Origin: Candidatus Nanohalarchaeota archaeon
GTDB taxonomy: Archaea > Nanohalarchaeota > Nanosalinia > Nanosalinales > Nanosalinaceae
Assembly (NCBI GenBank): GCA_022729235.1
Contig: JALDAJ010000001.1
Location: forward strand, 62,001-126,000
Length of the DNA: 64,000 nt
Direction: 5' to 3'
Shown piece by piece: positions 29,900 to 30,334 of the stretch. The notes beneath the pieces were generated by a model. The model was not told the origin of the DNA, did not search any database, and saw only the letters and a program-made list of their open reading frames with translations. How positions within the stretch are numbered: position 1 is the stretch's first letter; each line of letters begins with the position of its first letter. The position numbers were made by a program, and so were the translations under genes.

Positions 29900-29952
29900 G
29901 AAGTGCGTTCGTCTTACGAACGTGCTATGTTGATGAAACTGACAGCAGTTTC
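29900..29952 (+). repeat. structured RNA element, copy A (before tRNA-Val)
   Basis: Two consecutive hairpins: 29903-29911 pairs with 29917-29925, and 29935-29940 with 29947-29952. The element aligns without gaps to 30234-30286, with 42 of 53 positions the same. Three base pairs differ by compensating changes in both partners (29912/29916, 29935/29952, 29936/29951). It ends exactly one base before the tRNA-Val gene. Confidence 0.75.
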
Positions 29953-30027
29953 GGGTTCGTAGTCTAGCTTGGTTATGACACCGCCTTGACATGGCGGAGA
30001 TCCCCAGTTCAAATCTGGGCGAACCCA
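29953..30027 (+). tRNA. tRNA-Val (GAC)
   Basis: A complete cloverleaf: acceptor GGGTTCG pairs with CGAACCC, anticodon stem CCGCC/GGCGG holds loop TTGACAT (anticodon GAC), and T arm CCCAG-TTCAAAT-CTGGG. Discriminator A at 30027. CCA is not encoded. No intron. It is preceded directly by a structured element related to part of the next tRNA's intron. Confidence 0.93.
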
Positions 30028-30089
30028 TACGGGCGATGATATGAGTCCAACGGGAAGGTAGCTCAGGTGGTAAGAGCGCTGCGCTCATA

Positions 30090-30292
30090 ACAACTTTATG
30101 AGCGATGAGGGTCACTGTCTCGCCATGCGTGACAGTTCGAGAAGATCACATCGTTCTTTAAAGAACGATGTTCAAACACCGTTTCCCGAAAACGGTGTGT
30201 CTCTGATCTTCGACCCGATGATTAAAACATCTTGAAGTGCGTTCGCTTTGCGAACGTGCTATGGTGATCGAACTTCCAGAAGTTCGTGAGAT
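30090..30292 (+). other. large structured tRNA intron
   Basis: 203 nt. The intron start pairs with the anticodon loop (30084-30090 with 30096-30102). A helix (30137-30148 with 30204-30213, two-base bulge) encloses a perfect 22-bp palindrome at 30149-30170 and a 9-bp hairpin (30076-type arms at 30176-30184 and 30190-30198). The 3' part is the copy B hairpin element. GTGAG at 30286-30290 can pair with CTCAT of the anticodon loop, consistent with a bulge-helix-bulge splice substrate. Confidence 0.75.
30234..30286 (+). repeat. structured RNA element, copy B (3' part of tRNA intron)
   Basis: Second copy of the element at 29900-29952, at a constant offset of 334 bases. Hairpin arms are 30237-30246 with 30250-30259, and 30269-30275 with 30280-30286. 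It ends six bases before the 3' exon of the CAT tRNA. Confidence 0.75.
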
Positions 30293-30334
30293 ACGCAGAG
30301 GTCGCGGGTTCGAGTCCCGCCCTTCCCATTTCTG

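Follow-up and report, generated by a model that had tools for sequence, protein, structure and literature searches.

A covarying two-hairpin module set against tRNA genes and tRNA introns of Nanohaloarchaea, most likely part of a short mobile DNA element

Intron transposition between tRNAs (PMC4090602) and the disruption of a tRNA gene by an inserted element (PMC3293823) are both already known. Work from 2010 described similar sequences spread among the introns of different tRNAs, and the review that discusses it calls the mechanism of this transposition unknown (PMC4090602). The elements described here likewise place related sequences in introns of different tRNAs, but the nanohaloarchaeal unit has defined hairpin ends, is also found at leader and trailer sites and occurs on both strands. 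The disrupted tRNA-Thr gene of Caldiarchaeum is similar in that its insertion is bounded by a tRNA fragment and is tied to intron gain, although that insert is 1.9 kb long and carries a putative recombinase (PMC3293823), whereas the nanohaloarchaeal elements span about 55–150 bp and are non-coding. Nanoarchaeum equitans has mobile C/D box sRNAs and tRNA-sRNA dicistrons, in which structured RNA units likewise lie at tRNA-Val and in a tRNA-Met intron (PMC3491384); the unit reported here lacks consistent C/D boxes, has another structure and is found on both strands.

Two further systems share parts of the anatomy. REP/RAYT palindromes are dispersed and non-coding and have a conserved tetranucleotide beside a hairpin (PMC8266576, PMC3733652), but the nanohaloarchaeal element has linker-loop pairing and tRNA targeting, and no Y1 transposase was found in the eight element-bearing genomes searched. 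Eukaryotic Introners are mobile elements that possibly turn into introns; these introns are spliceosomal (PMC9860276), whereas the nanohaloarchaeal element, if it creates introns, would do so with a bulge-helix-bulge motif. Group I introns reported from Nanohaloarchaeota sit in rRNA only (PMC6125680). Text searches of the literature, which took in few subscription papers, returned no description of the present elements.

The window analysed here is a stretch of 64,000 nucleotides, part of a 1.03-Mb single-contig archaeal genome, and contains two copies of a 53-nt module on the forward strand. Read towards the tRNA, the module consists of hairpin 1, a linker UGX-UGAU and a 7-bp second hairpin (the cap, or hairpin 2), with UGX pairing with the first three bases of the cap loop. 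Copy 1 (29900..29952) lies in the leader of tRNA-Val(GAC) (29953..30027, forward strand) and adjoins its first base, a gapless junction at 29953 that had been correctly read as a spacing of zero. Folding gives it a hairpin 1 of 11 bp with a 3-nt loop (29902..29926), followed by the linker (29928..29934), in which UGU pairs with ACA of the hairpin-2 loop and is followed by UGAU, and by the cap GAAACUG-ACAG-CAGUUUC (29935..29952). Copy 2 (30234..30286) lies in a tRNA-Met intron, where it interrupts the stretch from box C' to the 3' splice site. Its hairpin 1 (30236..30260) again folds with 11 bp and a 3-nt loop, its linker (30262..30268) has UGG pairing with CCA of the loop and then UGAU, and its cap (30269..30286) directly meets the UGAG strand of the bulge-helix-bulge.

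The tRNA-Met(CAU) gene, also on the forward strand, has its 5' exon at 30052..30089 and its 3' exon at 30293..30328, as placed by reading the sequence beside the Met introns of relatives (11 for the 5' exon). The intron of 203 nt (30090..30292) has splice sites predicted from the bulge-helix-bulge motif, whose helix pairs CUCA (30084-30087) with UGAG (30287-30290). Copy 2 had been taken for the very 3' end of the intron; the splice site falls after 30292, six bases further on. The intron also contains a putative guide, UUAUGAG, with a box D' (30096..30108; AUGA at 30105-30108) and a box C'-like AUGAUUA (30218..30224), all three largely conserved across 12 genomes. By the N+5 rule the predicted target of the guide, for 2'-O-methylation, is C34 of its own tRNA, and the boxes depart from their consensus (D' C>A, C' G>U) in a way that would leave a base pair between them intact. 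The three-way-junction part of the intron (30135-30212) is 84% identical to part of a tRNA-Asn intron of the same genome (L025, G000:C1:285385-285462), a structured piece common to tRNA introns. A long-range pairing is possible in the Met introns of five relatives (G001, G007, G009, G014 and G023; L038, L043, L041, L056 and L053), where the D'-C' hairpin has a TTCTGGAA-like apical loop that complements a TTCCAGAA-like sequence directly ahead of the 3' splice motif.

The two copies align without gaps and differ at 11 sites in 53 nt, as the original prediction stated; the 'constant spacing' that it also claimed is meaningless with two copies only. Each copy folds into the 11-bp and 7-bp hairpins with energies of -20.2 and -21.2 kcal/mol (z -3.2 and -3.7). 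Three compensated pairs had been noticed and are correct, namely 36:53 (GC>CG), 37:52 (AU>GC) and 42:47 (GC>UA) of hairpin 2, but two more had been missed: the pair closing hairpin 1 (13:17, UA>CG) and a pseudoknot-like pair between the linker and the hairpin-2 loop (31:43, UA>GC). Ten of the 11 differences thus make up five compensated base pairs. With 11 random substitutions the probability of at least three such pairs is about 0.0008, and at least five arose in 0 of 200,000 trials.

A covariance-model (CM) search of this genome and its relatives, the check originally proposed, found further copies with the structure retained and did not refute the prediction. The model of linker and hairpin 2 has four matches in the genome of the window, at tRNA-Val (G000:C1:91925-91952), in the tRNA-Met intron (G000:C1:92259-92286), at tRNA-Gly and at tRNA-Ser, and about 50 matches in 12 of the 28 genomes of the phylum. 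Exact matches to the linker and hairpin-2 pattern come from several genera of the family; nearly all lie at tRNA genes and almost all have hairpin 1 in front. A reversed pattern gave 0–1 matches per genome and strand. Among 84,980 species the exact pattern matched 23 stretches, comprising 13 from Nanohaloarchaea, one from a MAG labelled Euryarchaeota (L150), which follows the linker-loop rule, and scattered bacterial stretches, whose number is by estimate about that expected by chance and several of which violate the rule. A viral origin was considered and rejected, the single match in viral contigs also violating the pairing rule. In Rfam only tRNA reaches the gathering score; no family, group I introns and guide RNAs included, matches the module above it. 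As far as the searches reach, the module forms a family restricted to Nanohaloarchaea, and because its structure is constrained throughout that family the description of a duplicated two-hairpin element supported by covariation holds. The observation is confirmed as real, structured, family-wide and unusual.

The structural rule is strict. Of 31 distinct copies, 30 have a perfect 7-bp stem in hairpin 2, whose outer two pairs come in six combinations, and the linker base X is complementary to the first loop base in 30 of 31, in the combinations U-A, A-U and G-C. In an alignment of 29 sequences 99% of cells pair, compared with 80.6% in shuffles, and the covariation score is 0.436 against 0.106 in shuffled alignments (reached in 0 of 500); sliding the partner abolishes the signal. 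No G-U occurs among the hairpin-2 and linker-loop pairs of the aligned copies. We also used a sequence-free descriptor, consisting of a 3-nt linker, a 4-nt spacer, a 7-bp Watson-Crick stem and a 4-nt loop complementary to the linker. In the window it finds just the two copies (0.4 expected) and in the loci it has 36 matches, some of them with unrelated sequence (GAT/ATC before tRNA-Met, GCG/CGC, ACG/CGT and TTG/CAA) and these too at tRNA 5' ends or at the edges of tRNAs or introns. Linker-loop pairing with new sequences is seen in L044, L058, L112 and L148, of which L058 is a candidate from outside the phylum. Allowing one mismatch added mostly chance matches. The rule is looser in one genome, G021.

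In nearly all copies hairpin 2 points at an exon or at the end of a tRNA, with almost no gap between them. Copies at 5' ends share the strand of the tRNA, those at 3' ends have the reverse orientation, and those beside intron splice motifs occur both ways round. The opposite-strand copies retain the same DNA sequence, so that UGAU appears as AUCA in the transcript. At several tRNA 3' ends (L042, L084, L086 and L088) the outer pairs of the cap, as read from the sequence, include the last two bases of the tRNA itself. Some copies lie away from tRNAs, for example two in G021 (L228 and L229) and one (L072) against a start codon; this last copy (G005:C1:38730-38757) adjoins the ATG of an apparent dnaJ-like gene. 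Only one of 12 tRNA-Met introns, that of the window, has a full copy, ahead of the 3' splice motif, while the 11 others lack it, several having a short TTCCAGAA-like remnant or parallel at that site. The same module is found in the same place in tRNA-Trp introns of two relatives. None of the tRNA-Val loci of relatives that were inspected has copy 1.

The edges of the element are clearest in G021, which has seven similar copies. Identity between the dispersed copies is about 0.8–1.0 inside the element. In the five that align without gaps it is 0.92–1.0, and it falls to the background level at precisely the base pair that ends hairpin 2. Their flanks are unrelated, being tRNA-Arg, another tRNA-like sequence, a 3' fragment of tRNA-Leu and two sites with no detected tRNA. 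The near-identical copies differ in hairpin 2, which nevertheless remains paired. Occurrence on either strand, the lack of G-U pairs, the sharp DNA boundary and a cap that differs yet stays paired therefore point to a dispersed DNA element. The family is short, non-coding, dispersed and sharp-ended, as MITEs are, with four copies in its own genome and seven in G021. We consider it probable, though well short of certain, that the 53-nt unit forms the end module of a MITE-like mobile DNA element of Nanohaloarchaea that is short, non-coding and built of hairpins.

A second type of cap stands at the same sites as the UGAU cap and is a hairpin with the loop GTTACGCT and ACGCA after it. Its 8-nt loop is invariant and its stem covaries (L160-L187), and in genomes of the phylum it often lies directly 3' of the 5' exons of tRNAs with introns. 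Six spacers (L171, L134, L077, L120, L165 and L163) have inward-facing caps at both ends, of the two types and with divergent sequences; no other end of the element is recognisable in the window. A model with left and right transposon ends, in which the GTTACGCT hairpin was the fixed other end, was revised because behind either type of cap the hairpin-1 module has the same orientation.

Some elements are flanked by direct repeats of tRNA fragments of 13–23 bp, for example GGCGGGATGGTGT at tRNA-Pro and the 3' end of about 23 nt at tRNA-Asp, which are absent or unrecognisable at most elements, the window copies included. Repeats of the 3' or 5' part of a tRNA that resemble att sites occur at several tRNAs, each with a different sequence, and at neither window copy. 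Direct duplicates of the first 12–16 tRNA bases were seen in L010, L013, L032, L102, L107, L113, L123 and L134, beginning exactly at the first base of the tRNA and lying 52–148 bp upstream. In tRNA-Leu leaders such a duplicate can pair with a nearby complement, and the leader is found in another family as well (L187). Duplicates of tRNA 3' ends lie downstream in L011, L014, L016, L017, L020, L021, L026, L030, L035, L113 and L117; they usually run from the T-loop to the last base, with hairpins in between. Tyrosine integrases are present in six of the eight element-bearing genomes, sometimes near element-bearing tRNAs, and none was matched to the element; the other two genomes, one of them only 77% complete, have none. 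One integrase gene (G000:C1:862694-863212) lies downstream of a tRNA-Thr at a distance of about 700 bp, and the intron of that tRNA begins with a GTTACGCT cap; G002 has the same layout. Searches for Y1 transposases and tyrosine integrases yielded no autonomous partner or enzyme for the element.

The main rival is an RNA function, in which the pseudoknotted pair of hairpins would stack on the acceptor stem or splice helix of the pre-tRNA and aid or time its processing, or would become a stable sRNA once RNase P, RNase Z or splicing had freed it. All copies in the genome of the window are at tRNA genes, and pairing is kept at tRNA or intron edges even where the sequence has changed completely. 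G-U pairs are present in hairpin 1 of each window copy, which an RNA would be expected to have and which speaks against a DNA reading, and this hairpin is more stable on the transcript strand in both. N. equitans, with sRNAs adjoining tRNA-Val and within a tRNA-Met intron, offers a precedent (PMC3491384). Strand preference is a weak test, hairpin 1 being more stable on the element strand in 10 of 15 forward and 7 of 11 inverted copies, but in the latter it is not tied to the transcript strand, and those copies keep the DNA sequence rather than the RNA sequence. The absence of G-U from the conserved pairs, the copies distant from tRNAs and the lack of a copy at most tRNA-Val genes of relatives also count against a dedicated RNA. 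A processing guide or free sRNA, as originally suggested, is possible, and on this evidence we hold an RNA function to be rather unlikely. The compensated changes had been called direct evidence that the RNA structure is under selection, a conclusion that is not warranted given copies on both strands, pairs without G-U and DNA copies that end at hairpin 2.

It is improbable that the module is a palindromic DNA repeat whose symmetry arises by template switching during replication, the arms correcting each other with no selection on structure. The stem pairs are all Watson-Crick with the outer two freely variable, and the near-identical G021 copies differ chiefly in the cap, as such correction would give, but it leaves unexplained the complementarity of linker and loop, which covaries over three base combinations and recurs with new sequences at four loci, and the placement against tRNAs. 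An element of REP/RAYT or IS200/IS605 type, in which a Y1 (HUH) transposase would read a tetranucleotide and hairpin, is more improbable still. The UGAU at the foot of the hairpin does resemble REP anatomy (PMC8266576, PMC3733652), but the search that found no Y1_Tnp match in the eight element-bearing genomes did give matches in five control genomes. A mobile box C/D or H/ACA guide RNA is the least probable reading: some linkers read RUGAUGA, CUGA precedes some copies of hairpin 1 and copy 2 shares its intron with the conserved D'/C' guide, but of 37 copies only 10 have RUGAUGA and just one has both boxes, and no Rfam guide family scores above threshold. A K-turn or box C/D reading of CUGA-hairpin-UGAUGA was rejected, since the box changes in its third base together with the loop of hairpin 2 and since a single copy in 37 has the two boxes. 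We know of no tie between REP elements and tRNA ends, which also counts against the REP/RAYT reading.

The likeliest reading of the module is thus that of a mobile DNA element, ahead of a dedicated RNA. We infer that it moves as DNA by means of an enzyme, and that its ends, which would need to pair as single strands (ssDNA or RNA), do so at the mobile stage. The last base pair of the cap would be the edge of the element. Insertions would survive where the host transcript can discard them, namely flush with a tRNA 5' end, at a tRNA 3' end on the opposite strand, or in a tRNA intron beside the splice motif. The element would be transcribed together with the pre-tRNA, and RNase P, RNase Z or the splicing endonuclease would presumably cut it away. 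Against a MITE-like reading, most copies have no clear target duplication, and transposons do not usually sit exactly flush with tRNA ends, a placement that selection or mechanism would have to explain. A bolder and distinctly tentative version makes the element an archaeal counterpart of Introners, a hairpin DNA element with a pseudoknotted cap fitted to its target, which would insert flush with tRNAs and, in the anticodon loop, form a bulge-helix-bulge intron; on our reading of the sequence, the outer pairs of the cap at tRNA 3' ends take in C72-A73 of the tRNA itself.

A palindrome near tRNAs can show compensated changes without having an RNA function. A dispersed element with defined ends is present at tRNA leaders, trailers and intron edges in many genera. 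It offers concrete sequences, predicted boundaries and strains for testing the origin of archaeal tRNA introns and inserts, and it may help to explain how archaeal tRNAs gain introns.
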